A stretch of 32,162 nucleotides of DNA from Fidelibacterota bacterium (GCA_021734065.1 JAIPJQ010000017.1:1-32162); one strand, 5' to 3'. Counted from the first letter of the stretch, positions 4,641 through 23,879 are shown. The notes: a model not told the origin generated them from the letters alone. Numbers and translations: made by a program.

Positions 4641-4643
4641 GCC

Positions 4644-5540
4644 CTAGACCCCGCTGTAATGTTTTTGGAGTCGCAACTGGACCAGGGTCGCAATAAACAG
4701 GATCAGGAATAGCACAAAGGCGAGTGCAGCCGAATAACCCATTCGCCACCAACGGAAACCTTCCTGGTACATGAGAAGAACAATACTCAGTGTAGCATTC
4801 ATGGGACCGCCCTGAGTCATGACATAAGGTTCTGCGAAGAGTTGGAAATAACCTATGATGGTAATGATTGATACGAAGATTGTTGTGGGCAGGAGCATGG
4901 GGAAGGTGATGTGAAGTAATTCCTGCCATTTCCCCGCGCCATCTATACGAGCGGATTCATACAGTTCTGGCGGAATATTCTGTAATCCGGCGATAAAGAT
5001 AATCATGTTGTAACCAAAATTTTTCCAGACTGCCATGAGAATCAGTGCTGGCATGGCCCATTTCGGATTCCCCAACCAGTCCACCGCACCGACACCTAAA
5101 AAACTCAGTAGATAATTGACCAGCCCAAACGAGGGGTGATAAATGTAGCGCCATACGACAGCCACGGCCACAAGCGTGGTAACAACGGGCAGGAAGTAGG
5201 CCAGTCTGAACAGGGACATGAAACGGATGAGTTTTGAATTGAGGAGCAAAGCCGTACCGAGAGAAACCATCAGGGATAGGGGAACGCCAACGAACACGAA
5301 ATAGAGGGTGTTGCGCATCGCTTTCCAGAAAAGTGGATCGCTTAATAAATTTTTATAGTTTTCCAGTCCTACAAATCGCGCATTCGAGCTATCTGCCAGG
5401 GAATAGATGTCAAAATCAGTAAAGCTCATTAAAAATGACGCTACCACGGGAATAAAGAAAAATACAGCAATAAGCAAAAGCGCTGGAGCCAGAAATAGAG
5501 CAGGACTCATCCAGACCTTGAAAAATCGCCCCGTTTTCAT
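4644..5540 (-). CDS. ABC sugar transporter permease, MalF type
   Basis: This 298-residue inner-membrane permease carries the N-terminal MalF-like sequence (FVGLENYKNLLSDPLFWKAMRNT) and an EAA loop at about residues 195-217 (ESARIDGAGKWQELLHITFP). It has six predicted helices. It lies between the binding-protein gene (26 bases upstream) and the MalG-type gene (three bases downstream), so the three are almost certainly one transcript. The pair should take up an oligosaccharide across the inner membrane; the neighbouring GH144, GH94 and GH3 genes suggest a beta-linked gluco-oligosaccharide. Confidence 0.95.
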   Translation of the reverse strand: MKTGRFFKVWMSPALFLAPALLLIAVFFFIPVVASFLMSFTDFDIYSLADSSNARFVGLENYKNLLSDPLFWKAMRNTLYFVFVGVPLSLMVSLGTALLLNSKLIRFMSLFRLAYFLPVVTTLVAVAVVWRYIYHPSFGLVNYLLSFLGVGAVDWLGNPKWAMPALILMAVWKNFGYNMIIFIAGLQNIPPELYESARIDGAGKWQELLHITFPMLLPTTIFVSIITIIGYFQLFAEPYVMTQGGPMNATLSIVLLMYQEGFRWWRMGYSAALAFVLFLILFIATLVQLRLQKHYSGV

Positions 5541-5566
5541 GTGAATTTCAGTTCCATTAATTTTGA

Positions 5567-6869: not shown

Positions 6870-9299
6870 TCATCGTATCAGCAGCAACTTGCCAGATTTG
6901 TACTCAGGCCCGCTGACAAGACGGAATAGGTACATACCGCTGGCCACTTCCCCACCTCCCTCGTTTGTTGCATCCCAAAAAATCTTACCCGAACCGGCCT
7001 CTTGCCGCTGGCTATGGTGATAAAGTTCATGACCCAACAAATCGTAGATCATCAGCTTCACATCGCCAGGTTGTGCAGTCTGGAAGTGAATGCCAACACG
7101 ACCGTTGAAAGGATTGGGATAGGTACTCAGCAAACGAAAATCCTGTGCGGATAGCAAGCGGTCATCATCAGGCTGAACACCAACCGTTGTATCCGGAAAA
7201 AACCCCATGGATTCCAGTGCCGGAGCGATTTCGGGGTTTGCCATGAATTGATTCCAGATCAAGTTGCTACGATAGTTTTCTATCATCACAATGATGGGTC
7301 CCTGGTCAATCGCCAGATAAGAGCTGGAATACCAGTCCTGGGTTTCATTAAAAGCATCATAAAAACCAAAGGGGCCGAAGATTCTGTCACCATGATCTGT
7401 ATAAAAATGGCGAAGCGCAGCCATGGACTCAACGGGAGTATAAGGAAAACTGGACAGCGCTGCGGTGGGCGTGATGGTCCCATTATCCCGATCCATCGTG
7501 GGTTCGTGAGCCAGGTAGCCAAAGGGGTCATCACTGGCAGTAAGTCCCCAACAATTTTCACCATAACCAACATAGCCACCGGGATTATCGATACACCAGG
7601 CCCGGTTGATGAGCGTGTGATTCTGGTTGTTGAAAAAATAATTGGTGTGGCTGTCCTGAATCCCACGCGGGTCGAAACCTAGATAGGAATAATGGGCAAA
7701 GAACAAGGGGCCACCATAGGGCCAGCCCACGTCAAGATTAATGCCGTAATAGCTGTTTCCGTTGTCATACGCAGGGGACGATGCAAACCCATTCTCCCAG
7801 AGTTCACCCGGTACACCATGAGTCGGTGAAGCAACGGCTAACAGGTACACGATCCCGGTTTCGTTGGGTCCCTGAAGCGCAAAATTCATGGCCCAATCAT
7901 GATTGGGTGACCAATGCCAGTAGAGAAAATTGCTGGTTGGTGTTCGTCGATACCAATCCCACTCGACACCTTCCCATAAGCTGGTTGCCAGACTCACGAG
8001 AGCCTGTTCAACGGGATCAGCACCATCGAAATAATTTCGTGCGGCCAGGATTCCTTGAATCAGGAAGGCCGTTTCCACCAGATCACCTCCATCATCGTAT
8101 TGGCTGAAGGGGATCACTTCCCCTGTATTGCCATCCATCCAATGGGGCCAGGCACCATGAAAGCGATCTGCCGTTTCAAGAAACTGAAACAACTCTAATA
8201 GTCTGTTTGCGGCTTCGCTTCGGCTGACAAAACCTCGCTCAGCACCCACAACGATGGCCATGATACCAAAACCGGTCCCGCCACTGGTCACCGTTTCGTT
8301 ATTCCCCGGCGTTCGCTCGCGGGCCATCTTTGAGACTGGATGGGCATAATCCCAGAAATATCTGAAGGTGGCTCGCTGTATCATGTCGAGAAAAGCCTCA
8401 TCATCCTGACTCTGAGTGCTCACCTCGACGCTTAGGGATAACTCGGATTCGTTATAGCTTCCATCAATGGCAGACACTTTGTAGAAACCAGACAGATCCG
8501 ATTCACCAAGGAAATGGTTAAAGAAGGGGATATCCTGCTGTGCGAATCCTACCAAGCTGTAGGTTCCGCCCCAGTTGCTGCGATAAATTCGATAACCTGC
8601 TACATCTTCATCAGCCACCGGGGTCCAGCTCAAATCCACATGCAGGTCGTAACCTACCGCTGTAAGATTCACAGGAATAGCCGGTGCGGTTGTGTCACTA
8701 TTTCCATAGGAGGTCATCCGTATTTCATCCAGAAAAAGGGTATGCTCACTCGCGTCGGATGTACTCTGACCATAAAAGATGGTTTTGATTGATGACATAT
8801 TTGCATTACCGGCCACGGCATAAAAAGTATCCAGCGGCATTGAGAACAATTGCCACTGTCCCAGGGGTATGGAATCGACATATGCTCCCATATTCACGGG
8901 GCTGGTTTTTTGATTGCCGGTATCCTCCAGATAAATATTGGGCAGGTCATCAATGGTCATATCGCCGCTTGAATACAGCCAGAAGGTGAGGAGATCCTGG
9001 GTACTGAGATCGTGTCCCGGCCAACCAATTTCCGCCACTGCCGCACCCCAGTTACCACCCGCCTGGCTGGTCCAATGGAGCCGTAAACTATTGTTTCCCA
9101 TGAACACGGTTGTCTCATCCACCGGAAATTTCTCACCGATGCGTTCCAGCAGGCTGGGTGAATTTACAAAACACCAGCTTGGATCGTATGACGTGGATGT
9201 GGGGCTGTCGTCAAAAAAGATATAATCCTCAGCCTGGGCGAATTTCGTCGTAAGACCCAGAACCAATATTGAGCTTATGATTAATGTTTTCATGGTCAT
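6870..9299 (-). CDS. T9SS-secreted GH144-type endo-beta-1,2-glucanase, multidomain
   Basis: This 809-residue protein has four parts. A signal peptide ends near AQAED (residue 24). A carbohydrate-binding-like beta-sandwich spans about 25-197, followed by a fibronectin type III domain (204-294). The catalytic domain (303-700) is followed by a T9SS sorting domain (720-809, YPNPFNGR at 727). The catalytic part has hallmarks of the COG5368/glycoamylase-like group now placed in GH144: FRYFWDYAHPVS, TSGGTGFGIMAI, ADRFHGAWPHWM, DDGGDLVETAFL, HWSPNHDWAMN, NCWGLTASDDP and YLAIDQGPIIVMIENYR. Characterised GH144 enzymes cut linear beta-1,2-glucan. The start has two candidate ATGs (9299 and 9293) behind GGGAGGGAG. 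It heads the operon with the binding protein and permeases, which implies uptake of its products. Fold and secretion are clear; substrate is inferred from family. Confidence 0.92.
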   Translation of the reverse strand: MTMKTLIISSILVLGLTTKFAQAEDYIFFDDSPTSTSYDPSWCFVNSPSLLERIGEKFPVDETTVFMGNNSLRLHWTSQAGGNWGAAVAEIGWPGHDLSTQDLLTFWLYSSGDMTIDDLPNIYLEDTGNQKTSPVNMGAYVDSIPLGQWQLFSMPLDTFYAVAGNANMSSIKTIFYGQSTSDASEHTLFLDEIRMTSYGNSDTTAPAIPVNLTAVGYDLHVDLSWTPVADEDVAGYRIYRSNWGGTYSLVGFAQQDIPFFNHFLGESDLSGFYKVSAIDGSYNESELSLSVEVSTQSQDDEAFLDMIQRATFRYFWDYAHPVSKMARERTPGNNETVTSGGTGFGIMAIVVGAERGFVSRSEAANRLLELFQFLETADRFHGAWPHWMDGNTGEVIPFSQYDDGGDLVETAFLIQGILAARNYFDGADPVEQALVSLATSLWEGVEWDWYRRTPTSNFLYWHWSPNHDWAMNFALQGPNETGIVYLLAVASPTHGVPGELWENGFASSPAYDNGNSYYGINLDVGWPYGGPLFFAHYSYLGFDPRGIQDSHTNYFFNNQNHTLINRAWCIDNPGGYVGYGENCWGLTASDDPFGYLAHEPTMDRDNGTITPTAALSSFPYTPVESMAALRHFYTDHGDRIFGPFGFYDAFNETQDWYSSSYLAIDQGPIIVMIENYRSNLIWNQFMANPEIAPALESMGFFPDTTVGVQPDDDRLLSAQDFRLLSTYPNPFNGRVGIHFQTAQPGDVKLMIYDLLGHELYHHSQRQEAGSGKIFWDATNEGGGEVASGMYLFRLVSGPEYKSGKLLLIR

Positions 9300-9837: not shown

Positions 9838-9854
9838 TTTTGAATACGGAGACG

Positions 9855-10886
9855 ATGAGTTCCACGTATGGTGATCAAATGACAACAATCAGAGATGTCG
9901 CCAAACAAGCAAAAGTGTCCACTGCCACTGTATCGCGTGTCCTGAATAACTCCGAAAAAGTCAGATCAGCAACGCGAGATCGCGTGAATGAGGTTATCCG
10001 AGAGCTAAACTTTATTCCCAATGCCGCCGCTGTGGGATTGCAACGCAAAAAAACAAAGACAGTTGGTCTCATATTTCCTGACGCCAGCGCCTATTATTTT
10101 GCTGAGATTATCCAGGGGATCAATCGTCATCTCTCTCAAAACGATCATCAGATTCTGATCTCAAGTGCCCATGATGAAGCGGAAGAAATCAAAATTATCA
10201 ATGGTTTTGTCAGGGGTGGGCGTATTGATGGTCTGATCATGATGATGCCCTCTGCGAATGGAAATAATGGGTTCAGAATCCCTTTAGCTTATAAAATTCC
10301 TGAGGTTTTTATCTCCTGTGAGATCAATGCTCCCAGGTCTACCACCATCTTACTGGACAACTACAACGCTGCAAAAGAGATGGTGGAGCACCTGTCAAAG
10401 TTAGGGCACAAGCGTATCGCTTTCATACATGGGGGTGAGCATAACTATGATGCCCACGAACGCTATCGGGGATATATGGATGGGATGAAAGCATGCCCGG
10501 CTGACGAGGAGCTGAATCTGGTCGTTATGGGAAACTTCACGGAATCCTCAGGATTTCAGGCGACTCTCGAACTCATGAAACGCAAACCGACACCCACAGC
10601 AATTTTTGCTGCCAATGATGCCATGGCCATTGGTGCCATTGAAGCCGCCAGAGCTCTGAAACTCAGGGTGCCTGCAGATTTGGCTATCGTCGGGTTTGAT
10701 GATATTTCATCCGCTGCTTACATGGATCCGGCACTCACCACCGTCCACGTTCCCTTGCGTCGCCTTGGACACCTGGCCGCAGAAGCTATGTTGAAAAACC
10801 TGAAAACCAATCTTGCCGACCGCACGACAGAAAAGATCATTATTCCACTGCAACACATCATTCGCAGATCTTGTGGTAGTGAATAG
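9855..10886 (+). CDS. LacI-family transcriptional regulator of the glucan locus
   Basis: This protein of about 343 residues has an N-terminal LacI helix-turn-helix (TTIRDVAKQAKVSTATVSRVLNN), a hinge region (NFIPNAAAVGLQRKKTKTVGLIFPD), and a C-terminal periplasmic-binding-protein-like effector domain ending in the usual IVGFDDISSAAYMDPALTTVHVP pattern. It should repress in the absence of a sugar ligand. The ATG at 9855 follows GGAG closely (three bases). The ATG at 9879, directly before TTIRDVA, is an alternative that matches the common family start. The gene lies right behind its own putative operator and is the first gene of the rightward set, and it probably also controls the divergent glucanase operon. 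The effector is likely an oligosaccharide of the locus substrate. Confidence 0.95.
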   Translation: MSSTYGDQMTTIRDVAKQAKVSTATVSRVLNNSEKVRSATRDRVNEVIRELNFIPNAAAVGLQRKKTKTVGLIFPDASAYYFAEIIQGINRHLSQNDHQILISSAHDEAEEIKIINGFVRGGRIDGLIMMMPSANGNNGFRIPLAYKIPEVFISCEINAPRSTTILLDNYNAAKEMVEHLSKLGHKRIAFIHGGEHNYDAHERYRGYMDGMKACPADEELNLVVMGNFTESSGFQATLELMKRKPTPTAIFAANDAMAIGAIEAARALKLRVPADLAIVGFDDISSAAYMDPALTTVHVPLRRLGHLAAEAMLKNLKTNLADRTTEKIIIPLQHIIRRSCGSE

Positions 10887-10991
10887 AAAGTCAAGATAGA
10901 AAAATTTTAAAAAAAGGGTCCTTTTCCATGGGAATCAAACAACACTGATTTCGGAAAGAGGATTTCAATCGCAAGCAAACAGGAGGACGTG

Positions 10992-12755
10992 ATGAAGAAA
11001 TTACGTGTATTACCAGCACTCCTAGTGGTGTTTACCACTCTGAGTTATCCGGTAGCAGTTTTGGCCGGAAGTCACGCTGATCCGGCCTTTATAAAGGTCG
11101 TGTCAGTAGAAACCGCTCCCACAGTGGATGGTGTTCTCGATGAAAATGTCTGGGCGCGCCGCTATGATCGGCTGGTCTTTAATGCGGGTATGGGCACGGG
11201 CGATGTTGACTTCGCCGTCACCGGCGGCGTTGAGGTTCAGGCCCCTTATACAGACACCACCAGTACAATTGTTAAGATTGTCCATGATGGACTTGACTTG
11301 TACATCAGTCTGGATTCGGATGATAAATCTGTCTGCCGCTTCAACAGCAGTTGGGAAGGCGATGGCATGTTCATGAAGATAAAAGATGCCAGTGGCGCCG
11401 ATATGGAATATAAACTGTACTTTAATCTGGAAGGCACAGATCCAGACATTCACTTGGAAGTTCCAGGTCTTTATCCAACATCAGCCGAAGGAGCCGCTTA
11501 TAAAAAACCAGGTACTATTGTAAACGATACCACCAGTGTCGATTCAGGATATACTGCAGAACTTGTGATTCATCTTGCTGATCTGGGTTATACCGATATG
11601 TATGCTGATATTCCTGTGCTGATCAACATTTTTGATCCGGATGGCTATACGGGTGTAAGTGGCGAAGCCTGGACTGTCGGTCAGTTTTACAAAGCCTGGT
11701 GGGGCAGCGAATGGGGTCCCGACATGCGTATTCTGCGATTGTCAGATCCACCGACCCGCGTTGCCTTTGCTACTGAGGACGAGATTGTCCTGGACGGTCA
11801 GATCAATGAAGCTTTCTGGGCAGGAGCCGAATCGGTTCTTGTCGGCCATAATACCAACGGTTCCACCGGTGGTTATTATGCACAGTGGAGCGATTCGTCA
11901 AATGACTATACGGATGCCAGTGAAACGAGCATCAAGTTCATTCATAACGGCGCATTACTCTATATCGCAGTAGAATCAAATGACATGTCCGTGGGTAAAT
12001 GGTCCCCAGGCTGGGAAGCTGATGGCCTGTTTCTCTGGATGACAGATAAGGGTGATTATGCCCCAGCCGCCCGTAAAGAGATTAAAGCCATGTATTTTAC
12101 CGGTGTAGAGGGAGACGGAATTTCCTTTGAAACCAATGATCAAGTTCCAACTGGTTCTGCCGAAGGCGTCAGCTTTGAACCGACGGGTACGGTGACACAC
12201 TCTGGAACCAATGGCGACGATGCAGGATATTCCATTGAGGTGGTCATCAATACTGCTGATTTTGGGTATGAAGTGGGCGACACTGTACGCTTAAGCACCG
12301 TAATCTGGGATCTGGACTATTCCAGTGCAGATGAATACGATGCCGCTATTGCTGATTATGCACCTGAATGGTGGGGAACCCAGTGGGCTGATCCCAACTT
12401 TGAAAAATACTACATGTATCGCGGTGTTATTTTGAGTTCTGATCCGGTTTCTGCCACTGATTTTGAATCAGTACCAGCAAGCTTTGAACTTTCTCAAAAT
12501 TATCCAAATCCCTTCAATGCAGGGACCGTCATCAGTATGTCTCTGCCCGAATCAGGGAATGCGAATTTGGAGATTTACAATGTGCTGGGGCAGAATGTTG
12601 CTACCCTGTATAATGGTTTTCTCTCTGCAGGGAGTCACAATTTCTCATGGAATAGCCTGGGAAATCACAATCAGCAGCTCAGCACAGGCGTGTATTTTTA
12701 CCGATTGACGGTAGGTGATCAGGTTGCCATCAAGAAAATGGTAATGGTCAAATAA
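10992..12755 (+). CDS. Secreted tandem CBM9-like protein with T9SS sorting domain
   Basis: This 587-residue protein has a signal peptide (cleavage near AVLAGS, residue 26). It has two related CBM9/DOMON-like beta-sandwich modules (about 40-250 and 258-480) and a C-terminal T9SS sorting domain (498-587, NYPNPFNAG then GVYFYRLTVGD and KKMVMVK). Each module starts with the typical pattern: TVDGVLDENVWARR and VLDGQINEAFWAGA. No catalytic domain is present, so it probably binds glycan on the cell surface. AGGAGG at 10981-10986 supports the ATG at 10992 (five-base spacing) rather than the GTG at 10989. It precedes the TonB receptor gene in the position where SusD or a surface glycan-binding protein would lie in Bacteroidetes loci. 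The ligand is not proven. Confidence 0.88.
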   Translation: MKKLRVLPALLVVFTTLSYPVAVLAGSHADPAFIKVVSVETAPTVDGVLDENVWARRYDRLVFNAGMGTGDVDFAVTGGVEVQAPYTDTTSTIVKIVHDGLDLYISLDSDDKSVCRFNSSWEGDGMFMKIKDASGADMEYKLYFNLEGTDPDIHLEVPGLYPTSAEGAAYKKPGTIVNDTTSVDSGYTAELVIHLADLGYTDMYADIPVLINIFDPDGYTGVSGEAWTVGQFYKAWWGSEWGPDMRILRLSDPPTRVAFATEDEIVLDGQINEAFWAGAESVLVGHNTNGSTGGYYAQWSDSSNDYTDASETSIKFIHNGALLYIAVESNDMSVGKWSPGWEADGLFLWMTDKGDYAPAARKEIKAMYFTGVEGDGISFETNDQVPTGSAEGVSFEPTGTVTHSGTNGDDAGYSIEVVINTADFGYEVGDTVRLSTVIWDLDYSSADEYDAAIADYAPEWWGTQWADPNFEKYYMYRGVILSSDPVSATDFESVPASFELSQNYPNPFNAGTVISMSLPESGNANLEIYNVLGQNVATLYNGFLSAGSHNFSWNSLGNHNQQLSTGVYFYRLTVGDQVAIKKMVMVK

Positions 12756-12892: not shown

Positions 12893-15568
12893 ATGGATGG
12901 GCAGCAATTGAAATGGATGTTCATAAAGATGAGATCAGCAATACTGATCGCGTTGATCCTTCAATTCCTTCCGCTGGTGTGCTTCTCAGGTACCACAGGT
13001 AAGCTCAGCGGCAAAATCACCGACGCTGAAACGGGTCAACCCCTTCCTGGTGCCAATGTCTTTCTGTCGGGCACGAATTACGGTGCGGCTACCGACTTGG
13101 ATGGTTATTACATGATTCTGAATGTTCCACCAGGGACATACAGTTTACATGTTCAAATGATCGGTTATCAAGAAATCCGCCAGGATAATATCAGGGTCCT
13201 CACCGACTTCAATTCCATCAACGATTTTAAATTGACTGCCCAAGTACTGGAGGCAGCAACCCAGGTTGAGGTCATCGCAACCCGACCAGATATTCAACGT
13301 GATCGTACCAGTACCTTGGCGGTGATCGGTTCAGAAGAAATAGATAAACTGCCTGTGCTTGAAATGGATGACGTGGTTGGTCTGCAAGCCGGGGTAGTGG
13401 ATGGTCACTTCCGGGGTGGTAGAAGTGGTGAAGTGAGCTATATGCTGGATGGGATTAGTGTCACCGATCCCTATAACGGTGAAATGGCCGTAACCATTGA
13501 TAACAGCAACATTCAGGAGATCAAGGTGATCAGCGGTACTTTTAGTGCCGAATACGGACAGGCCATGAGCGGTGTGGTGAATATCGTCACCAAGAGCGGT
13601 GCACCGAAATTTGGATTGTCAGTAAATGTATATGGGGGTGATTTTATTTCCAGGAACACCAATACTTTTGTGAATATTGACCAACTTGATCCGTCACAGA
13701 ACCTCAGCGGCGAATTTACCCTAACCGGACCTCTGGGAATTCTTGGAAAGGGTGCGGGTTTTGTTTTTAGTGTAAAAAATCAATCGAATGCAGGTCACCT
13801 ATTTGGCATCGAAGAATTTCTACCTTCAGATTCGTCCAATATCGATGACCCCGATCCGGAAAGTTGGTATATCTCCCGATCAGGAAGCGGTGCAATCGTC
13901 CCCATGAATTATAAAAACACCTTTTCCACACACGGCAAACTATCAAAGCATCTGGGTCCCAAGGTCCGAATCGATCTCTCCTCTGATCTAACCCGGCAAT
14001 CCTGGTCAAATTACGACCATCTCTACAAGTATAACCCCCAGGGCATTCAGACCCATTTTAAGGATAGCTACCAGACAACCCTGTCCCTGAACCATTTTCC
14101 AAATTCAAAATTATTTTATACCATCAACTTCTCTCGCTTCAAATCCGACCTGAGTAATTATGTCTACGAAGACTACAAGGATGAGCGCTACGTCAGTACC
14201 CTATTATCCAGGCGGCTGGGCTATGGCTTCTATACCGGTGGAGTGGACATGAGTCACTTCTACAGAAGCAGCACCGTAAATACAATCAAAATCAATTTGA
14301 TTGCCCAACCCAATCGCCATCATGAATTAAAGACTGGAATTGAAGCCCGGAAAAGCGAACTCTGGCAACATGATTTCGGTATAAAACTGGATCGTAGTAC
14401 TGCCTGGCTGCCTGAAATATTTCCCGAAGAACACTGGGGCAATAACGAGTACACTCACAGTCCCCTGGAAGTAGGGATCTGGCTTGAAGATAAGATTGAG
14501 GCTGAACGTCTCGTGCTGGTGGCAGGGCTACGCTATGATTATTTCCAGCCTGATGGACTGGAACCTTTGGATCTGCGAGACCCGGACGGGAGTTACACGG
14601 GAAATTCGGAGGAGGCATTTAAGGATGCCCCAAGCTCATCCCAATTATCTCCCCGTCTGGGATTATCCTATCCGATTAGCGACAAAGGTGCAATCCACAT
14701 TTCATATGGACATTTTTTCCAGATCCCGGCATATGAATATCTCTACCATAATTCAGAATTTGAAATTCAGGGTGGGGATCTAAAGAGCATCGTTGGTAAC
14801 GCTTCACTTTTACCAAAGAAAACAGTGATATATCAATTCGGCTTACAGCAAATGCTTTCTGCCAATCTTGTATTGGACATCACCGGCTATTACAAAGATA
14901 TGCGCAATCTCGTCGGTACTCAAATTTATGAACTCTATATCCTTGGCGATAGCTATGCCCGTTACGAAAATCAAGACTATGGCAATGTCAGGGGCGTGGC
15001 TCTCTCACTTTCCATGAAGCAAATAGGTCTTTTCTCAGGGTCAATTGAGTACACCTATCAAACAGCAGAAGGAAATGCCTCCGATCCCCGCAGTGTTTTT
15101 AATGATCGCCAGAGTGATCCTCCTCGCGCCAGTGAAATCCAGGTGGTACCGCTGGACTGGGATCAGACCCATACCATTGATATTTCAATGACCATGAACG
15201 GAAATAACTGGTATCTGAGTCTCATTGGCCAGTATGGCTCCGGATTGCCTTACACACCTGAGTTTCAGGGTGAACGTACTGCTTTCCAGAATTCTGAACG
15301 GAAACCCAGCACACTGAATCTGGACATGTCTGGAGAATACGGCATCCCTCTGGGGGCTTCCCGTCTAGCTCTGTATTTTTTAATTAAGAACGTAATGGAT
15401 CGTAAGAACGCTAAGGACGTCAATAAGGATACGGGCAGCCCATCATATAGTCTGGTCCCTACCTATGTACCTGAACAATCCATTCACACTTTAGAGGATT
15501 TCCTGTCGCGTCCCGATTATTTCCAGGCTCCTCGTGAAGTGTTGGTTGGTATGAAATTCATACTTTAA
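12893..15568 (+). CDS. TonB-dependent outer-membrane receptor with CarboxypepD-regulatory-like domain
   Basis: This protein of up to 891 residues imports a ligand through the outer membrane using TonB energy. A hydrophobic signal (RSAILIALILQFLPLVCFSG) precedes a carboxypeptidase-regulatory-like domain (36-115, GKITDAETGQPLPGANVFL). The plug follows (about 125-240, with YMLDGISVTDPYNG and EYGQAMSGVVNIVTKSG), then the beta-barrel. It is shorter than a SusC (about 1000 residues) and no SusD gene follows. Starts at 12893 and 12929 are both possible; neither has a good ribosome binding site, and 12929 gives a tidier signal peptide. The 1100-residue secreted protein gene begins 10 bases downstream. 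Import of gluco-oligosaccharides released by the GH144 enzyme is inferred from position. Confidence 0.93.
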   Translation: MDGQQLKWMFIKMRSAILIALILQFLPLVCFSGTTGKLSGKITDAETGQPLPGANVFLSGTNYGAATDLDGYYMILNVPPGTYSLHVQMIGYQEIRQDNIRVLTDFNSINDFKLTAQVLEAATQVEVIATRPDIQRDRTSTLAVIGSEEIDKLPVLEMDDVVGLQAGVVDGHFRGGRSGEVSYMLDGISVTDPYNGEMAVTIDNSNIQEIKVISGTFSAEYGQAMSGVVNIVTKSGAPKFGLSVNVYGGDFISRNTNTFVNIDQLDPSQNLSGEFTLTGPLGILGKGAGFVFSVKNQSNAGHLFGIEEFLPSDSSNIDDPDPESWYISRSGSGAIVPMNYKNTFSTHGKLSKHLGPKVRIDLSSDLTRQSWSNYDHLYKYNPQGIQTHFKDSYQTTLSLNHFPNSKLFYTINFSRFKSDLSNYVYEDYKDERYVSTLLSRRLGYGFYTGGVDMSHFYRSSTVNTIKINLIAQPNRHHELKTGIEARKSELWQHDFGIKLDRSTAWLPEIFPEEHWGNNEYTHSPLEVGIWLEDKIEAERLVLVAGLRYDYFQPDGLEPLDLRDPDGSYTGNSEEAFKDAPSSSQLSPRLGLSYPISDKGAIHISYGHFFQIPAYEYLYHNSEFEIQGGDLKSIVGNASLLPKKTVIYQFGLQQMLSANLVLDITGYYKDMRNLVGTQIYELYILGDSYARYENQDYGNVRGVALSLSMKQIGLFSGSIEYTYQTAEGNASDPRSVFNDRQSDPPRASEIQVVPLDWDQTHTIDISMTMNGNNWYLSLIGQYGSGLPYTPEFQGERTAFQNSERKPSTLNLDMSGEYGIPLGASRLALYFLIKNVMDRKNAKDVNKDTGSPSYSLVPTYVPEQSIHTLEDFLSRPDYFQAPREVLVGMKFIL

Positions 15569-15578
15569 TGGGGATGAG

Positions 15579-18500
15579 ATGAGTTTTAAAAACAAAGTAT
15601 GCATTATCGCCCTAAGCATGTTGCTGATCTCAACGCCCCTGCTCAACGCACAAAATAACATTGATGCGCTACATGGGGATCGTATCAATCGTAAACAGGG
15701 TCTGCATAACGGGAATCTGGTAGAAACACTGTTCTGGAATTTTGGCGAAGTAGCCTGGTGGGGCAAACAACCCTCCGGTGTCTGGCCCAAAGGAACCAAT
15801 CACTCCTATATGGATGGTATTTACCCATTGGTGGCCGCAGAGGTGCAGCTTAGTGATGGACGGATCACTCACATTGTTGAGGGTGGCTACCGAGAGCATT
15901 ATGAAGAGGGTTCCACCGGTATGGAATTCGGATGGCAACCGCTGCCTGATTTTGCCAATCCTGACCAGGATTATATCGCACTCAGCGATGATCCCAATAC
16001 CTGGCCACCCTACTGGCCGGATCAGCCGGCAGACTGGGGGGGGTCCTGGAACGGCTATTTTGGCAGAAAAACCAATGCCGACCAGGAAAGCTATTTTGTC
16101 ATGGATGATTACCAGGATTATGGACAGGATTTTTGGGGGCTCTTCAACTCAGATTCCCTTGACCCGAGTCGTGGCGGCCTGGGAATGCGCGTAGCCGTAC
16201 GCGGTTTTCAATGGTCGAATGTACTGGCTGAAGACATCATTTTCTGGCATTATGATATTACCAATGTATCAACAACCACCTATCCTAAGACGGTTTTTGG
16301 GATGTATGCCGATGCAGGAGTGGGCGGCCAAAACGATAGTAACGATGATCTGGCTTTCTACGACCTGTCTCTGGATCTGGCATATACCTGGGATTCCAAC
16401 AATCTGGGAGAGGGCAATTGGGAAACCGGTTACGCCGGTTATGCATTTCTGGAAAGTCCGGGGAATCCTTTCGATGGTATCGATAATGACGAAGACGCAT
16501 CTGCAGGCTCATCACCTGAGCTGGGGAGCGTGGATTTTCAACCGCGGAACCTGGTTGATGAGGTTGTGCTGATCGATTACCAAAATATGACCGTGGACAA
16601 TAACCGGGGACGGATACTCACCAGTTTCAGCGCGGGAGGATCAGATGATTTTTACCATTTTTCCGGCGACAGCCTCTTCTTGAATCAATATGATAGCGTG
16701 AGCGTCTATGTGCGCGGGTCAACCTACACTGATATACCCTTTAATGGTGTCGATGATGATCTGGACGGAATTATTGACGAAAACGAAGCCGTACATATGG
16801 GGTTAAAGGTTAAGAATTATTTTACTGGCGCCGGACTGGATGATCCGCTCATTGATGAAGCCAGGGATGATGGTGTGGATAACGATGGTGACTGGGATCC
16901 TGAACTCCACGATGTGGGGGCAGACGGGCTGGCGGGTACCGGCGATGCCGGTGAGGGAGACGGACTTCCGACGCTGGGTGAGCCAAACTTTGACATCACT
17001 GATAAAGATGAGTCTGATCAGATCGGACTTACGGCCTTTGATGCTTTCTATATCGGTCAGGGTGTGGAATTTGGTCAGGATGAGGTGATCTGGGATCGCG
17101 TGGCCAACTATCATTTCAGCAACGTAGCATTACCCGGTAACATTGCTTTTCTGTTTGGTTCCGGACCCTTTATCATGCCACCAAATCACACCGAACGATT
17201 CTCCATGGCCCTGGTATTTGGTAAAAACCTTGAAGACTTGAGGCGCAATAAAGAGGTGGTCCAAAATATCTATAACGCCAATTATAATTTCGCCCGTCCT
17301 CCAGAAAAACCTACCGTCACAGCCGTGGCTGGCGACGGCAAGGTGACGCTGTATTGGGATGATTTTGCCGAAAGTTCCTACGATGACCCAGCCTTTACCC
17401 ACCCGGCGACTGGCGGATATGATTTTGAAGGTTACCGGATTTATAAAGCCACCGACGCTTCCTTCAACGATGCCTACAACATCACCAACGGATATGGCGA
17501 AGCAGCCTTCCACGATCCGGTCGCACAATACGATTATGACAATGATGTCCAGGGCTTCTTCAATGTCGATGTCCATGGTATTGAATACTATCTCGGCGGG
17601 GACACCGGTCTGCGACATTCCTGGGTAGACACGGATGTCCAGAATGGCGTGACTTATTATTACGCAGTCGTGTCCTATGACCGTGGCTGGGAAGAAAAAA
17701 ACATCCTGCCCTCTGAATGTACCAAGGTCATCGTCAAGAACAACGCCGGTGAAATTACGGTTGACAAGAATACGGTTTTTGTCACTCCCAATGCCCCGGC
17801 GGCGGGATATGTGTCACCTGAGATCGCTGGAGGTCTACATCGCATACAGGGTTTTGGAACCGGGGATATCCGAATAAATATCATTGATCCGGCCCTGGTG
17901 ACTGATGGAGAATACCGGATCAGTTTTGATGATACGACGCGTCAGGACACGCTCAGCTATACTTTGTCCGAAATAGGATCTGATCCACCTGATACGATGA
18001 TAATCTTTAGCGATTCAGAAGCACTTATGAATGAGGATGTCAACCCCCTTTTCGCAGGCATGCGCATCCAGGTAAGCAATGACACAATAGCGCCAGATCC
18101 GGAAAACACCGGTTGGGCTCAGGGTGTTTCGAATATGTTGATTTACGCTGAACGTGACTCTTACTGGGATGGATTTTTGGGCAGGATTGAAGGATACCCT
18201 GCCTGTTATGAAGTACACTATGGTGTGGTGGACAGTTCCATGTTGAAGAGTAGTTTTAAACATCTCTCAAATTTCCGTGTGATCGATAAAGTCAGTGGAA
18301 AGAAGGTGCAAACCTATCTCTGGGAGCCCTTGGAGAATCGGGATAGTCTGCTTTCTGCCGGAGATTATCTCCGATTGCAATTAAAGGTCGGGGGACTTTG
18401 GCGGGACACCTGGCGGATTTATTTTGTGAGACCTGAAGAGAATTTAATCATGCCGGATTCTGGAGATGTCGCCAATATTGGTATCCACTTACCCTTTAGA

Positions 18501-18881
18501 AGCGGGGATGAGTTCGCCTTCACATCCTTTGCGGCTGACATGGATCAAACGCTGGCAAAACGTCAATTGAGAAATATAGCCGTAGTCCCAAACCCTTATG
18601 TGGCAGCCGCCGCCTGGGAGTCTCAGCGGATGAGTGCATCAGGACGTGGAGAACGCAAGATCAATTTTATCCATCTTCCCCAACAAGCCCAGATCAGCAT
18701 CTTTAATGTGAGTGGGGACCATGTGATCTCTCTGGATCACTTAAGCGGGATAGATGATGGTGCATTGGCGTGGAATCTCCAGACCAAGGACGGGCTGGAT
18801 CTGGCACCAGGCGTCTACATTTATTATGTGGATAGTGCCTTGGCAGGAACATTTACAGGCAAATTTGCCGTGATTAAATAG
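15579..18881 (+). CDS. Large secreted protein with acidic Asp-rich repeats, FnIII domain and VPNPY C-terminal domain
   Basis: This 1100-residue protein starts with a signal peptide (MSFKNKVCIIALSMLLISTPLLNAQ). The first 280 residues are rich in Trp, Tyr and Asp. Three acidic calcium-site-like stretches follow: FDGIDNDEDA (about 298), FNGVDDDLDGIIDENEA (about 388) and DDGVDNDGDWDPELHD (about 430). A fibronectin-III-like part begins near residue 576 (KPTVTAVAGDGKVTLYWDD). The last 104 residues form a sorting-domain-like end (IAVVPNPYV … GVYIYYVDS … KFAVIK). It lies between the TonB receptor (10 bases) and the PorV-like gene, so the three act together. I know no assigned function; a surface partner of the receptor, in place of SusD, is a reasonable guess. 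Confidence 0.85.
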   Translation: MSFKNKVCIIALSMLLISTPLLNAQNNIDALHGDRINRKQGLHNGNLVETLFWNFGEVAWWGKQPSGVWPKGTNHSYMDGIYPLVAAEVQLSDGRITHIVEGGYREHYEEGSTGMEFGWQPLPDFANPDQDYIALSDDPNTWPPYWPDQPADWGGSWNGYFGRKTNADQESYFVMDDYQDYGQDFWGLFNSDSLDPSRGGLGMRVAVRGFQWSNVLAEDIIFWHYDITNVSTTTYPKTVFGMYADAGVGGQNDSNDDLAFYDLSLDLAYTWDSNNLGEGNWETGYAGYAFLESPGNPFDGIDNDEDASAGSSPELGSVDFQPRNLVDEVVLIDYQNMTVDNNRGRILTSFSAGGSDDFYHFSGDSLFLNQYDSVSVYVRGSTYTDIPFNGVDDDLDGIIDENEAVHMGLKVKNYFTGAGLDDPLIDEARDDGVDNDGDWDPELHDVGADGLAGTGDAGEGDGLPTLGEPNFDITDKDESDQIGLTAFDAFYIGQGVEFGQDEVIWDRVANYHFSNVALPGNIAFLFGSGPFIMPPNHTERFSMALVFGKNLEDLRRNKEVVQNIYNANYNFARPPEKPTVTAVAGDGKVTLYWDDFAESSYDDPAFTHPATGGYDFEGYRIYKATDASFNDAYNITNGYGEAAFHDPVAQYDYDNDVQGFFNVDVHGIEYYLGGDTGLRHSWVDTDVQNGVTYYYAVVSYDRGWEEKNILPSECTKVIVKNNAGEITVDKNTVFVTPNAPAAGYVSPEIAGGLHRIQGFGTGDIRINIIDPALVTDGEYRISFDDTTRQDTLSYTLSEIGSDPPDTMIIFSDSEALMNEDVNPLFAGMRIQVSNDTIAPDPENTGWAQGVSNMLIYAERDSYWDGFLGRIEGYPACYEVHYGVVDSSMLKSSFKHLSNFRVIDKVSGKKVQTYLWEPLENRDSLLSAGDYLRLQLKVGGLWRDTWRIYFVRPEENLIMPDSGDVANIGIHLPFRSGDEFAFTSFAADMDQTLAKRQLRNIAVVPNPYVAAAAWESQRMSASGRGERKINFIHLPQQAQISIFNVSGDHVISLDHLSGIDDGALAWNLQTKDGLDLAPGVYIYYVDSALAGTFTGKFAVIK

Positions 18882-18903
18882 GAATCAAGTGACGGAATCC
18901 ACC

Positions 18904-19953
18904 ATGAAACGCTTTTGCGAAACAAGCACCACAAGTGCCGTTCGTCTTGTTGCATGCATTGCCGTATTCATGGCGACCTGGAATCCAATAATGGCTTCTG
19001 ATATTATCAGCAAATCGGGCACAACTGTAGCGCAATTCTTGAAAATTGGCCTGGGGTCCCGAAGTATGGCCATGGGCGGAGCTGCTGCTGCTTCGGTGAA
19101 CGATGCCAGCGCCCTGTACTGGAATCCTGCAGCAGGTGCCTTCTTTGAATACGGGAATGTTCAGGTGGAGCAATGTAGCTGGATTGCAGGTATGGATTTT
19201 AGCTATTATGGCGCAATTATCCCTCTGGGCAACTCACAATCACTGGGTCTTGGCCTCGTCAGTCTTTCCACCGGTGACATGCTGGTCAGAACCGTCGATA
19301 AACCTGAAGGTACCGGCGAATATTTTTCCGCCAACGATCTGGCTATCACTTTATCCTATGCCCGTGCTCTGACGGATTTTTTCAGCATTGGATTCAATGG
19401 AAAGTACATCCATCAACGCATTTGGAATTCAACCGCAGCGGGCATCGTGCTGGATTTTGGGAGCTTATACTATTTTGATAACCGACGCTTGCGCATTGGC
19501 GCTACCGTTTCAAATTTTGGTCAAAAATTGCAGTACAGCGGCAAGGACTTGATGATCGTGTACGACCAGAATCCCGATGCCTCTGGAGATAATTCGCATA
19601 TCCCGGCCATTTTGTACACCAATGCCTGGGATATACCACTGACCTTTCGCTTTGGCCTGGCTTACGATTTACCCAAGCTGAAAATCGGTGAAATCACGCT
19701 TGAAGCAGATGCCGTCCACCCCAATGACAATTACGAATACCTTAATCTCGGTTTCGAATGGCGTCCCTGGTCCGTGCTTGCCCTCCAGGCGGGATATGAA
19801 AGTCTTTTTCAGAAAGATAGCGAAAAAGGTCTGACACTGGGTGGATCTCTTTATCTGGATGTTGGGGGAATGAACCTGGGATTTCAGTACAGCTATGAGG
19901 ATTTTGGTCGTCTTAATTATGTCCAGCGAATCGACCTCCTGCTCCATTTCTGA
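18904..19953 (+). CDS. PorV/PorQ-family (UPF0164-like) outer-membrane beta-barrel protein
   Basis: This protein of about 349 residues has a signal peptide followed by the family signature (AQFLKIGLGSRSMAMGGA … NDASALYWNPA). A FadL-like barrel of alternating strands ends in an aromatic residue (LLLHF). PorV is the T9SS shuttle that receives cargo with C-terminal sorting domains; relatives also occur as accessory barrels in this phylum group. Here it sits beside three genes for sorting-domain proteins, suggesting a locus-specific cargo acceptor or a partner of the TonB receptor. A GTG at 18889 behind AGGA is an alternative start; the ATG at 18904 gives a cleaner signal peptide. Confidence 0.86.
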   Translation: MKRFCETSTTSAVRLVACIAVFMATWNPIMASDIISKSGTTVAQFLKIGLGSRSMAMGGAAAASVNDASALYWNPAAGAFFEYGNVQVEQCSWIAGMDFSYYGAIIPLGNSQSLGLGLVSLSTGDMLVRTVDKPEGTGEYFSANDLAITLSYARALTDFFSIGFNGKYIHQRIWNSTAAGIVLDFGSLYYFDNRRLRIGATVSNFGQKLQYSGKDLMIVYDQNPDASGDNSHIPAILYTNAWDIPLTFRFGLAYDLPKLKIGEITLEADAVHPNDNYEYLNLGFEWRPWSVLALQAGYESLFQKDSEKGLTLGGSLYLDVGGMNLGFQYSYEDFGRLNYVQRIDLLLHF

Positions 19954-20001: not shown

Positions 20002-22383
20002 GTGAATGCTGACCATCAATTTGAAACTGAGTTGGGCTATTTCAATCGGGAGGGTACCGAATATATCATCAAGACTCCCAGGACGCCCAAACCCTGGATA
20101 AATGTGTTGTCCAACGGTCGCTATGGTTTGACGATCTCCCAGTGTGGTGGAGGCTTCAGTTGGTTGGATCATTCCGAGTTTAATCGTATTACCCGTTGGC
20201 ATCAGGATTTGGTGAAAGATGACTGGGGCAAGTACCTCTATGTCCGGGATAATGACACCGGTGAATTCTGGAGTCCCACCTGGTTACCGGTAAAGACTGA
20301 TCTTGATGCGTATCAATGTCGCCATGGTTTTGGATATACGGTCTTCCACTCCCGCGTCAATACGATAAAGATTACGCTGACCGTGTTCATACCCATGGAT
20401 GAACAAATGGAAGTCTGGGATGTGGAGATTGAAAACCTGGGGTCTGAACCCAGATCCCTAAGTCTGTTCAATTATTTTGAATGGACACTTGGCTCCAGCA
20501 ATGACCACCACCGGGAATTTCATAAAAATTTCATCCAGACCCAATTTGAACCTGACACAAATACGATTTGGGCTCAAAAACGGCTCTGGGACATCGCTCT
20601 GGGAGATAGAGGTCACTGGAATATCGACCATCCCTTTAATGCCTTTCTCTCCTGTACCAGCAAAGTCAGCGGATTCGAATGCGACAAGGAAGCCTTTCTG
20701 GGTCAGTATGGCAGCCTTGAGAGACCGGAAGCCGTTGCCAAAAATGGTTCTCCAGGCAAACAGGGAATGTGGCAGGATGCCATCGCCAGTCTCAAAGTCC
20801 CCGTAGAACTGGCAGCGGGAGCCAGACAGAGTCTGGCCTATTTGATCGGCATGTACGCCAGCACTCAGGATTGTCAGGTTGCCATGGGGAAATATCAGAC
20901 GGAAGACCAGAGGATTTCAGCTCTGAATGCGGTAAAAGTGTACTGGTCAGAGCTGCTGGGTGCCCATCAAATGGAGACACCCGATGCATCCATTAACATT
21001 CTGGCCAACGGCTGGTTGAAATATCAGGCTATTTCAGCCCGTATTTACGGTCGTAGCGCCTATTATCAGCAGAGTGGCGCCTTTGGTTTCCGCGATCAAT
21101 TGCAGGACAGTCAGGTTTTTCTGCCCATTGATGTAAGCAAAACTGAAAAACAGATTCGACTCCATGCAGCCCACCAATACATGGATGGTTCCGTCCTCCA
21201 CTGGTGGCATCCCATTGCTGAGCAGGGTTTGCATTCCGGCATTGCTGACAATTATTTGTGGCTGCCCTTCCTGGTAATTTCTTATCTGCAGGAAACAGAT
21301 AACATCTCATTTCTCCAAGAACAAATTCCCTTTTATGATGACCCAAAAACGGCATCGATCTATGAACACTGTCTGAGATCCATTCAACGCAGTTTATTGC
21401 GCACAAGTAAACGCGGACTGCCTTTTATCGGCGCCGGAGACTGGAACGACGGCCTAAGCGCTGTTGGTTTGGAGGAGCAGGGTGAATCGGTTTGGCTGGC
21501 ACACTTTTTATATTTCATCCTGAAGGAATTTATCCTCCTCGCCGACGAGACCGGTGACACTTTGCATCACAAACTTTTTCAGGACAAAGCGCTTGCTCTG
21601 GTCAATGCCATTCAAACTGCAGGGTGGGATGGAGAGTGGTTTATTCGGGCAACCAAAGACGATGGCGAGATCATTGGTGGCAAGGAGTGCCAAGAGGGGA
21701 AGATCTACCTGAATGCACAGACCTGGTCGGTTATCAGCGGGAGTGGCACATCTGAGCAGCAAAAGCAGGCCATGGCAGCAGTTAAACTGCATCTGCTTAA
21801 AGATTTTGGTCCCTTGCTGTTGTCACCTGCGTATAGCAAACCGGATCCCCTTATTGGCTATCTTTCCCGTTACGCTGCAGGAACCAGGGAAAATGGTGGT
21901 GTCTATACCCATGCGGCAACCTGGGCTATTTGGGCATTTGTACTTCAGGGTCAACCAGAATTGGCTTATCAGGTCTACCAGGGTATTTCTCCCATACACA
22001 ACGGGATGATTCCCGCGAGATACCTTGGAGAACCCTATGTAACGCCTGGAAATATTGATGGTCCTGACTCTGCTTATTATGGCCGGGGTGGCTGGACCTG
22101 GTATACAGGCTCGGCAGCCTGGCTCGATAAAATGGTTTCAGAGCGCATCCTGGGTATTCGGCCAACCAGAGCAGGACTGCTTATAGATCCAGCAATTCCC
22201 GCAGAATGGAAACACTATTCCATGACCAGAAAATTCAGGGGAACCGTCTATACCATCAAGGTGAGTAATCCCCTCAATCGTAGCTCGGGTATCCGTGAGC
22301 TCCAGATAGATGGCTCGATCATTCAAGGTAATGTGATCCCGCCTCGACCATCAAAAACCTGCCTGGTGCAGGTCACCATGTGA
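20002..22383 (+). CDS. GH94 glycoside phosphorylase, cytoplasmic
   Basis: This 793-residue enzyme should cleave a beta-glucoside with phosphate to give alpha-glucose 1-phosphate. The N-terminal family pattern is clear (EYIIKTPRTPKPWINVL, residues 20-36), as are GEFWSPTWLPV and YQCRHGFGYT. The catalytic Asp lies in GAGDWNDG (477-484). Phosphate-site residues are kept: Arg in GFRDQLQD (362-369), His in VYTHAATW (634-641) and YTGSAAW (701-707). The length matches cellobiose, chitobiose or cellobionate phosphorylases. DGSVLHWWHP and GFRDQLQD resemble cyclic beta-1,2-glucan synthase GH94 domains and some oligosaccharide phosphorylases. It starts at GTG, with GGGA eight bases upstream, and has no signal peptide. 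Substrate is uncertain; sophorose-type beta-1,2-glucosides fit the context best. Confidence 0.92.
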   Translation: MNADHQFETELGYFNREGTEYIIKTPRTPKPWINVLSNGRYGLTISQCGGGFSWLDHSEFNRITRWHQDLVKDDWGKYLYVRDNDTGEFWSPTWLPVKTDLDAYQCRHGFGYTVFHSRVNTIKITLTVFIPMDEQMEVWDVEIENLGSEPRSLSLFNYFEWTLGSSNDHHREFHKNFIQTQFEPDTNTIWAQKRLWDIALGDRGHWNIDHPFNAFLSCTSKVSGFECDKEAFLGQYGSLERPEAVAKNGSPGKQGMWQDAIASLKVPVELAAGARQSLAYLIGMYASTQDCQVAMGKYQTEDQRISALNAVKVYWSELLGAHQMETPDASINILANGWLKYQAISARIYGRSAYYQQSGAFGFRDQLQDSQVFLPIDVSKTEKQIRLHAAHQYMDGSVLHWWHPIAEQGLHSGIADNYLWLPFLVISYLQETDNISFLQEQIPFYDDPKTASIYEHCLRSIQRSLLRTSKRGLPFIGAGDWNDGLSAVGLEEQGESVWLAHFLYFILKEFILLADETGDTLHHKLFQDKALALVNAIQTAGWDGEWFIRATKDDGEIIGGKECQEGKIYLNAQTWSVISGSGTSEQQKQAMAAVKLHLLKDFGPLLLSPAYSKPDPLIGYLSRYAAGTRENGGVYTHAATWAIWAFVLQGQPELAYQVYQGISPIHNGMIPARYLGEPYVTPGNIDGPDSAYYGRGGWTWYTGSAAWLDKMVSERILGIRPTRAGLLIDPAIPAEWKHYSMTRKFRGTVYTIKVSNPLNRSSGIRELQIDGSIIQGNVIPPRPSKTCLVQVTM

Positions 22384-22431
22384 TGCGAGCAACAAGGGTT
22401 GTTACCCAGTCGGGTTGACCAGGGTCCGCCT

Positions 22432-23832
22432 ATGCAGAAGCAATTATTTCCAGTCATCATTCTTTTTTCAGTGATCTTGCAGTCGTTCACAAGCTGCGGC
22501 GTTCATTCATCACAACCGCTGGCTGTTCCACAAAACAATTTACCTTTAAATAGGACTGAACCTCAACAGATCACCTCCGCAGACAGCCTCTATCTCAGAA
22601 CGCTTGCAGCGGAGACCTGGAAGTTCTTCGCCACATTCGTTGATCGTGCTACAGGCTTGATACCGGACCATATGAATGGTCGGGAGCTTGACCCGTCAGA
22701 TTACACATCGGCGACAAATATAGGTCTCTATATGGTCTGTGTGGCTGCTGCCGAAGATCTGGAATTTATCACCCACGAGCAGGCCCTGGATTATTTGAGT
22801 CGCACCTTGAGTTCCTTGCAGAAAATGGAACGCCACAACGGATTCCATCTCAACTGGTATAGCCTTCCTGCCATGGAAGTCACACGAGCGTATGTTTCAA
22901 GCGTTGATGCCGCCTGGTTGTATGCCAGTGTTGCCGCCATTTCAATCAAATACCCGGAATTGAACAATGGCTGCCAGAATATTCTGGGTGGCGTTGACTT
23001 CGCCTGGCTTTTTGACCCGGCACTTGGGCAATTCTATCTGGGTTATGATCTGGAAAAACAGGAATTCTCACCCTATCACTATGGCATGCTCTGCAGTGAG
23101 AGCAGGATTGTCAGTTATCTGGCTCTCGCCTGGCAGCAGGTTCCGGAGAGTCATTGGACCCGGCTTTATCGTGTCTTACCAGATTCTGTCGATCAACAGG
23201 GTTCACCGCGGCATTTCTCCCAACAGTATGATCAGCAACAAAGCTTTAGCAGTGGCTATTACCTCTATCAAGATTTTCTGCAGATTTTGCCATCCTGGGG
23301 TGGAAGCATGTTTGAATATCTTATGCCCACGCTGTTTGTGGACGAACAACGCGAGGCAACCCTGGGACTGGGGGAGAACGACAAGCGAATTGTTGCCGTT
23401 CACAGAGATTACGCTCTGAACCACCTGGGATATCAAGTCTGGGGCATGAGCCCATGTGCGACACCCGAGGGCGGCTATGATGTCTTTGGAGTCTCAGATA
23501 TTGGCAGCCGTAAAGAGGGGAGTCGTGAAGACATTGTCACACCCCATGCCAGTATTCTGGCCTTAAGCTTTGCACCCCGTTGGGTGGTGGACAATCTTGA
23601 TATCCTGGAAAAGCGTTACAGGCTTCGTGGAGACTATGGGTTCTTTGACTCAGTGAATCCCAAAACGGGAGAAGTCGCCGAGAAATACCTCTCTCTTGAC
23701 CAGGGGATGATTCTGCTGTCAATCAATAATTATTTGAATAGGGGATCTTTGCCCAGGACTTTCAAACAGGTAGGAGCAATGACTAAAGTCTTGGAACTCA
23801 TCGCTCCTGAACCATTTTTCCCTGCACCCTGA
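22432..23832 (+). CDS. Lipoprotein of the glycoamylase-like clan (GH144/GH189-related)
   Basis: This 466-residue protein is a predicted lipoprotein (QSFTSC, Cys at residue 22) that probably faces the periplasm. It resembles the glycoamylase-like module of cyclic beta-1,2-glucan synthases: SATNIGLYMVCVAAAEDLEFI, LQKMERHNGFHLNWYS, YVSSVDAAWL, SWGGSMFEYLMP, and a late VTPHASILALSFAP. LSLDQGMILLSINNYL mirrors the GH144 motif in the glucanase at 6870-9299. That module remodels beta-1,2-glucan. AGGG eight bases before the ATG at 22432 supports this start; an upstream TTG at 22399 would not give a normal signal peptide. The gene begins 48 bases after the GH94 stop. An endo- or exo-acting beta-1,2-glucanase or transglycosylase is inferred. 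Confidence 0.82.
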   Translation: MQKQLFPVIILFSVILQSFTSCGVHSSQPLAVPQNNLPLNRTEPQQITSADSLYLRTLAAETWKFFATFVDRATGLIPDHMNGRELDPSDYTSATNIGLYMVCVAAAEDLEFITHEQALDYLSRTLSSLQKMERHNGFHLNWYSLPAMEVTRAYVSSVDAAWLYASVAAISIKYPELNNGCQNILGGVDFAWLFDPALGQFYLGYDLEKQEFSPYHYGMLCSESRIVSYLALAWQQVPESHWTRLYRVLPDSVDQQGSPRHFSQQYDQQQSFSSGYYLYQDFLQILPSWGGSMFEYLMPTLFVDEQREATLGLGENDKRIVAVHRDYALNHLGYQVWGMSPCATPEGGYDVFGVSDIGSRKEGSREDIVTPHASILALSFAPRWVVDNLDILEKRYRLRGDYGFFDSVNPKTGEVAEKYLSLDQGMILLSINNYLNRGSLPRTFKQVGAMTKVLELIAPEPFFPAP

Positions 23833-23879
23833 GACCCCGAATAGTTAGAGTAGAACACCCTATTATTGGAACCTTCAGA

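Follow-up and report, generated by a model that had tools for sequence, protein, structure and literature searches.

A recurrent gene trio of TonB receptor, large surface protein and PorV-like barrel as a probable SusD-less, type IX secretion-dependent uptake module

How nutrients cross the outer membrane where SusD is absent is the question raised by a 32,162-nucleotide stretch of DNA from a Fidelibacterota bacterium (GCA_021734065.1 JAIPJQ010000017.1:1-32162), called the window below. Three of its genes encode a TonB-dependent receptor (P0001), a large secreted protein (P0002) and an outer-membrane barrel related to PorV and PorQ (P0003). The initial annotation of the window had seen in them a conserved trio forming a joint surface complex, which might replace SusCD, with the large protein as a lid or binding partner. 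The open reading frames (ORFs) are exactly where that annotation placed them, separated by 10 nt (receptor and large protein) and 7 nt (large protein and PorV-like gene), in a host belonging to Candidatus Neomarinimicrobiota. We think it probable that the trio forms the outer-membrane portion of a nutrient-uptake module that works without SusD and depends on the type IX secretion system (T9SS), with the large protein parked on a PorV-like barrel of its own.

The trio recurs widely in the Fibrobacterota-Chlorobiota-Bacteroidota (FCB) group. Scanning named genomes with a profile of four large-protein sequences gave 80 loci, spread over Neomarinimicrobiota, WOR-3/Stahlbacteria, KSB1, Calditrichota, Ignavibacteriota, Gemmatimonadota, Fermentibacteria, Delongbacteria, Krumholzibacteriia and Rhodothermales. 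As the loci were picked by the large protein alone, the identities of the flanking genes are a fair test of synteny, and the conservation claimed at the outset passed it: the receptor is directly upstream at 73 of 75 testable loci and a PorV-family gene directly downstream at 65 of 71 (66 after one missed ORF is restored), with median gaps of 11 and 12 nt. Synteny is the same in another set of loci from within the phylum. The nearest named-genome match to P0002 is in Candidatus Marinimicrobia CG1_02_48_14 (95% identity), and the large-protein family is present in 56 of 60 relatives' genomes. Trio carriers include the named strains Stygiobacter electus, TS1B10-1 and TS1B10-2, which makes the module testable.

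Within the window's own genome, a profile scan places the large-protein family at several sites, and about eight trio copies, complete or cut by contig ends, can be counted: the window, two on contig C70, and one each on C30 (with one inserted gene), C121, C50, C71 and C78. Contig C145 has receptor and PorV with no large protein before the contig end, and C9 has a PorV alone. Since only nine PorV-family genes exceed the cut-off in 2.5 Mb, and seven of these are in the trio arrangement, the packing is far above chance. In one trio lineage (L038, 6436-7833; L212, L215, L216, L222, L225 and L233) an extra gene of 450-500 aa lies between large protein and PorV; that of L038 has a lipoprotein-like start.

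The trio genes are also co-inherited as units. In a mirror-tree comparison of 101 non-redundant trios, the distance matrices correlate at 0.785 for receptor and large protein, 0.638 for large protein and PorV, and 0.725 for receptor and PorV. To take out the species signal, partners were then exchanged 1000 times between paralogues within a genome (17 genomes, 40 trios); no shuffle reached the observed correlation for any pair, and the shuffled means were 0.49, 0.36 and 0.49 in the same order.

The tail of the large protein links it to the barrel. The "VPNPY end" of the initial annotation exists as a motif (residues 1003-1007), although it marks the start of a C-terminal domain (CTD) of about 95 residues rather than the end of the protein. 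P0002 scores 17.1-22.5 bits against TIGR04183, the T9SS CTD model, just under the cut-off of 23; with its signal peptide and a CTD recognised through the family profile (PorZ, PorU, TIGR04183), it has both marks of a T9SS substrate. Among 68 large-protein CTDs, the PorZ model matches 58, PorU 46 and the ordinary TIGR04183 tail 27, and a profile of these CTDs finds PorZ and PorU as its only matches in the PDB. An ordinary CTD is present in 28 of 45 proteins directly downstream of trios, and the 25 models that these 45 match most often do not include PorZ. Unprocessed CTDs are known from PorU and PorZ of Porphyromonas, where they remain on PorV and PorQ, respectively; cognate PorV-like barrels have been proposed to be protective (PMC10202324). 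The large-protein CTD thus resembles the retained PorZ/PorU type, not the type of ordinary T9SS cargo.

This CTD subtype separates cleanly and keeps company with PorV. Scanning the window's genome with the CTD profile gave seven matches of 89-174 bits (P0002 at 160), all in trios beside PorV paralogues, and then, after a clear gap, 26 matches of at most 31.7 bits, mostly ordinary tails. Over all fetched loci, proteins with the N-domain and a PorZ-like CTD have a PorV within 5 kb in 152 cases, none within that distance in three (in one of which, L155, a PorV lies further along the cluster) and a contig edge in four. N-domain proteins with an ordinary tail number only two; one is a second tandem copy and the other has no PorV or receptor beside it (L043, 577-3345, on contig C132 of the window's genome). 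In four other genomes, including a complete Ignavibacteriota chromosome and that of Stygiobacter electus, 18 of 21 PorZ-like-CTD proteins (20 fetched regions) stand between a TonB receptor and a PorV, and this order holds even where the body is 639-1222 aa and the N-domain is unrecognised. The constant parts are therefore receptor, CTD and barrel, while the body of the middle protein appears exchangeable in these trios. At five loci (L249, L251, L252, L255 and L256) the middle protein, of 639-1101 aa, has the PorZ-like CTD but no recognised N-domain. Overall, the link between large-protein CTD and PorV-like barrel is stronger than that between large protein and receptor as a lid.

The barrel itself is a PorV/PorQ-family member, as first annotated, with 186 bits against NF033709 (cut-off 90). 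It is closer to PorQ (95 bits, equivalog cut-off 220) than to PorV (62 bits, cut-off 250) and below both cut-offs. SprA, the T9SS translocon, is encoded in the window's genome (774 bits, contig C34) and in 59 of 60 relatives, with or without the trio. A likely housekeeping PorV (62.8 bits; L031, L080) is on C34 with SprA, apart from the trio PorVs. Weak matches to BamG were found for 18 of 50 trio PorVs; BamG is a FadL-family barrel of the beta-barrel assembly machinery (BAM) that anchors the large surface protein BamH (PMC12578637).

The body of P0002 is harder to name. Its signal peptide ends in STPLLNAQN and no lipobox cysteine was seen by eye, so the protein does not have the marks of a surface lipoprotein. 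The Asp-rich stretches noted originally are three loops at about residues 299-308, 393-404 and 426-481, of which the first and third hardly vary in the family alignment; judged by eye, they are probably calcium-binding. Sequence searches gave no Pfam match and no PDB relative. An AlphaFold2 (AF2) model from 77 family members is confident and mostly beta (pLDDT 85.4, pTM 0.75), and the layout is signal peptide, beta-rich N-terminal domain, FnIII-like domain, further beta domain and PorZ/PorU-like CTD. With the whole protein as query, Foldseek found no more than partial resemblance, to FnIII arrays, PorZ and part of a dextran dextrinase (TM at most 0.16 relative to the query), and we therefore leave the N-domain fold unnamed. 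The viral structure library gave mostly FnIII-type matches, and SusD was not among the structural matches. Full-length similarity to PorZ was found neither by sequence nor by fold. The two consecutive trios of contig C70 (L036, 6110-10819; L037, 5395-10092) have large proteins of about 1570 aa, with an insert before the CTD in which NLWATSPDG and WFGT look like propeller motifs. PorZ has propellers.

P0001 has the CarboxypepD_reg, Plug and TonB barrel domains (Pfam) of an outer-membrane receptor, as annotated, and a TonB-box-like VEVIAT near residue 125, found by eye. It is not a SusC/RagA protein by TIGR04056 (52 bits, cut-off 368). The barrel of a homologue (L141) was modelled at high pLDDT, and Foldseek returned TonB receptors, BtuB among them. 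A siderophore or heme receptor was considered and rejected, as the NCBIfam matches of P0001 are weak and all far under their cut-offs. SusD is absent, as had been stated, from the ten window proteins scanned and from the window's 82%-complete genome (PF07980, PF14322), and that genome has no SusC match at 1e-30. Replacement of SusCD by the trio fits the window's order, where PF07980 is found in none of 23 genomes, but not all other carriers. Among 60 relatives SusD occurs in 10 and SusC over cut-off in 13; two of the three named strains with the trio have SusD over cut-off and the third a sub-threshold match; and a single Sus operon is known from Melioribacter roseus (PMC3534657). The complete Ignavibacteriota chromosome has ten PorZ-like CTDs and no SusD. 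With SusD and the trio found together in some carriers, the data fit an alternative to SusCD, dominant in the window's order, rather than a strict replacement.

The genes around the trio point to carbohydrate. Against solved GH144 endo-beta-1,2-glucanases P0009 matches 5z06 at 3.8e-180 and 5gzh at 4.9e-148, which places it in GH144; the window's GH94 is closest, among solved structures, to the GH94 domain in cyclic beta-1,2-glucan synthase (8e-159); and P0007 belongs to the same clan of beta-1,2-glucan enzymes, whose SGL/PF10091 context has been described (PMC12102758). The GH3 is a general beta-glucosidase. These families (GH144, GH94, PF10091) make beta-1,2-glucan the likely food, and the substrate of the window's trio is probably a beta-1,2-gluco-oligosaccharide. 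The locus has the composition of a SusCD-type locus (glycan enzymes, binding proteins and a regulator) in its LacI, GH144, GH94, SGL-clan protein, GH3 and CTD protein. At other trios, the carbohydrate-binding module (CBM) CBM20 occurs in 18 of 45 downstream neighbours and CBM9_1 in 6 of 47 upstream neighbours, P0005 itself having no CBM9 call; LacI, GH94, GH16 and amylases are also frequent, as are CBM20 or CBM9 proteins that bear a CTD. Such neighbours support a role in glycan uptake in general.

Putting these elements together, the T9SS translocon would export the large protein, which would be neither cleaved nor released, its PorZ/PorU-like CTD staying bound to the dedicated PorV/PorQ-like barrel. 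The barrel would hold the protein on the surface beside the TonB receptor, where the variable body may capture or present a nutrient for TonB-energised import. In the window, GH144 would cut beta-1,2-glucan outside the cell, the trio would import the pieces, and the ABC transporter, GH94 and GH3 would complete the breakdown. We regard as evenly balanced the broader proposition that this is a third energised uptake architecture of the outer membrane, parallel to SusCD, in which a TonB receptor works with an interchangeable capture protein that the T9SS delivers and a retained CTD holds on a PorV-like barrel of its own, across many FCB phyla and for diverse nutrients; the body would be exchanged, with receptor, tail and barrel unchanged.

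Several observations weigh against the uptake module, or narrow it. PorV does not come directly after the large protein at five of the 71 loci: two (L094, L136) have a second large protein in tandem, two (L148, L155) are reordered and L098 has no PorV. Single sequences resemble PorZ weakly (best E 1.8e-7), and only in the CTD. The 18 CBM20 neighbours may stem from few events, carbohydrate loci are the context of part of the trios and not demonstrably of all, and SusD stands alongside the trio in some other Neomarinimicrobiota and Ignavibacteria. Linkage alone can yield mirror-tree correlations like ours, so these establish a unit and not a complex. Perhaps, then, the operon merely travels together while its products act separately, the receptor importing, the surface protein binding and the PorV being a general T9SS spare. 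We find this improbable, as the order is conserved over many phyla and the CTD-specific association with PorV exceeds operon habit.

A stronger form of the uptake module would have the N-terminal domain of the large protein cap the receptor and open and close during import, like SusD. The pair does have the highest mirror-tree correlation, and the absence of SusD from the window's order and the carbohydrate context would suit such a lid. However, when receptor barrel and N-domain were modelled as one chain by AF2 (stop read through, 27 naturally in-frame pairs), the pTM was 0.59, about the value for undocked parts (the barrel is 660 of 1160 residues), with both parts confident and no docking, from shallow pairing, no pair-error map and the plug omitted to stay within 1200 residues; because of that omission, the result weakens the idea only slightly. 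The middle proteins lacking a recognised N-domain in some Ignavibacteriota and the lack of structural resemblance to SusD also speak against a lid, so that this part of the initial annotation is not supported and seems to us doubtful. Somewhat less likely again is that the PorV-like barrel only aids secretion of its partner, which would then form no stable complex and act as an adhesin or binding protein, either free or anchored in some other way. PorP/SprF are PorV-like barrels for specific (type B) substrates (PMC10202324), and there is one PorV paralogue per large protein; the CTD, however, resembles the retained rather than the cargo type, and the equally linked receptor is not explained by export alone. 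The PorZ/PorU-like CTD, PorZ as the top Foldseek match (partial, TM about 0.1) and the many neighbours with ordinary CTDs (26 of 45 downstream) might instead suggest a PorZ-like processing factor that attaches neighbouring glycan-binding proteins and enzymes and binds no nutrient itself. To such an attachment station we give little chance: the large protein has neither sortase domain nor PorZ body, the window's genome also encodes ordinary-CTD proteins at a distance from any trio, and the constant TonB receptor would be left unexplained.

The trio sits in a run of eight plus-strand genes (LacI, CTD-bearing secreted protein, receptor, large protein, PorV-family barrel, GH94, PF10091 lipoprotein, GH3), opposite a divergent run with the CTD-bearing GH144 and a sugar ABC transporter (Table 1). 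The GH144 on one strand (6870-9299, minus) and the GH94, SGL-clan lipoprotein and GH3 on the other (20002-25544, plus) look like a beta-1,2-glucan utilisation locus. A GH94 also follows the orthologous trios of L088, L091 and a Melioribacteraceae metagenome-assembled genome (L093). PPIC/SurA-type prolyl isomerases (PPIase chaperones) are directly upstream of 8-9 of 47 trios. The window also encodes an MFS-type transporter (646 aa; 27144-29084, minus) with a mid-chain insert of about 200 residues, seen by eye; Rfam and tRNA scans of the window gave no matches.

Table 1. Features of the trio locus, in window coordinates
Feature	Position	Strand	Basis or remark
TonB-dependent receptor P0001 (891 aa)	12893-15568	+	CarboxypepD_reg N-terminal extension, plug, beta-barrel (Pfam/NCBIfam)
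Large surface protein P0002 (1100 aa), predicted T9SS export	15579-18881	+	Translation, family alignment, AF2 model, CTD profiles
C-terminal sorting/anchor domain of P0002	18519-18878	+	PorZ/PorU/TIGR04183 models, own-genome CTD profile scan
PorV/PorQ-family outer-membrane barrel P0003 (354 aa)	18889-19953	+	NF033709; alternative start ATG 18904
LacI-family regulator, first gene of plus-strand run	9840-10886	+	Domain search
Secreted P0005, T9SS type A CTD, probably CBM9-like surface glycan-binding	10989-12755	+	TIGR04183, 48.6 bits
GH94 phosphorylase, no signal peptide seen	20002-22383	+	Domain search and PDB sequence match
Predicted lipoprotein P0007, beta-1,2-glucanase (SGL) clan, PF10091	22399-23832	+	Lipobox by eye
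GH3 beta-glucosidase, no signal peptide seen	23880-25544	+	Domain search
GH144 endo-beta-1,2-glucanase P0009 with CBM30 and T9SS CTD, divergent operon	6870-9299	-	Homology to solved GH144
Sugar ABC transporter, divergent run	3825-6856	-	Substrate-binding protein 5567-6856; permeases 4644-5540 and 3825-4640, assigned by sequence inspection

Polymer uptake without SusCD is poorly known in the largely uncultured FCB phyla (Neomarinimicrobiota, KSB1, Calditrichota, Ignavibacteriota and others), and the three adjacent genes, together with a cleanly separating CTD subtype, would give a signature by which uptake loci and their substrates could be recognised in metagenomes. The trio would also give a role to many PorV/PorQ paralogues annotated by family only, and would extend the T9SS from secretion to the building of transport complexes. 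We found no published description of the receptor, large-protein and PorV combination in the open-access literature, and priority is uncertain.

Among known systems, the SusCD importers of Bacteroidota (the levan utilisome, BT1762-1763) share with the trio a TonB receptor with a CarboxypepD_reg extension and a large surface protein, and with the window's locus the nearby glycan-binding proteins, hydrolases and regulators. The trio differs in its receptor, far under the SusC/RagA cut-off, in having no SusD but an extra PorV/PorQ barrel, and in its partner, a T9SS CTD protein with no lipobox where SusCD has a lipoprotein. BtuB-BtuG and other pairs of TonB receptor and surface lipoprotein likewise join a receptor to a dedicated extracellular capture protein, although BtuB-BtuG has a lipoprotein anchor, no PorV and a vitamin substrate. 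The BamG-BamH pair of the Bacteroidota BAM also has a FadL-family barrel that fixes a large surface protein next to a second barrel, as proposed here, but BamH is a lipoprotein, the partner barrel is BamA and the function is barrel assembly. The PorZ-PorQ and PorU-PorV pairs share with the trio a surface protein with an unprocessed-type CTD and a barrel of the PorV/PorQ family; unlike these pairs, the large protein and its barrel always stand beside a TonB receptor and have many paralogues per genome, and the large-protein body is not a sortase and has no full-length match to PorZ.

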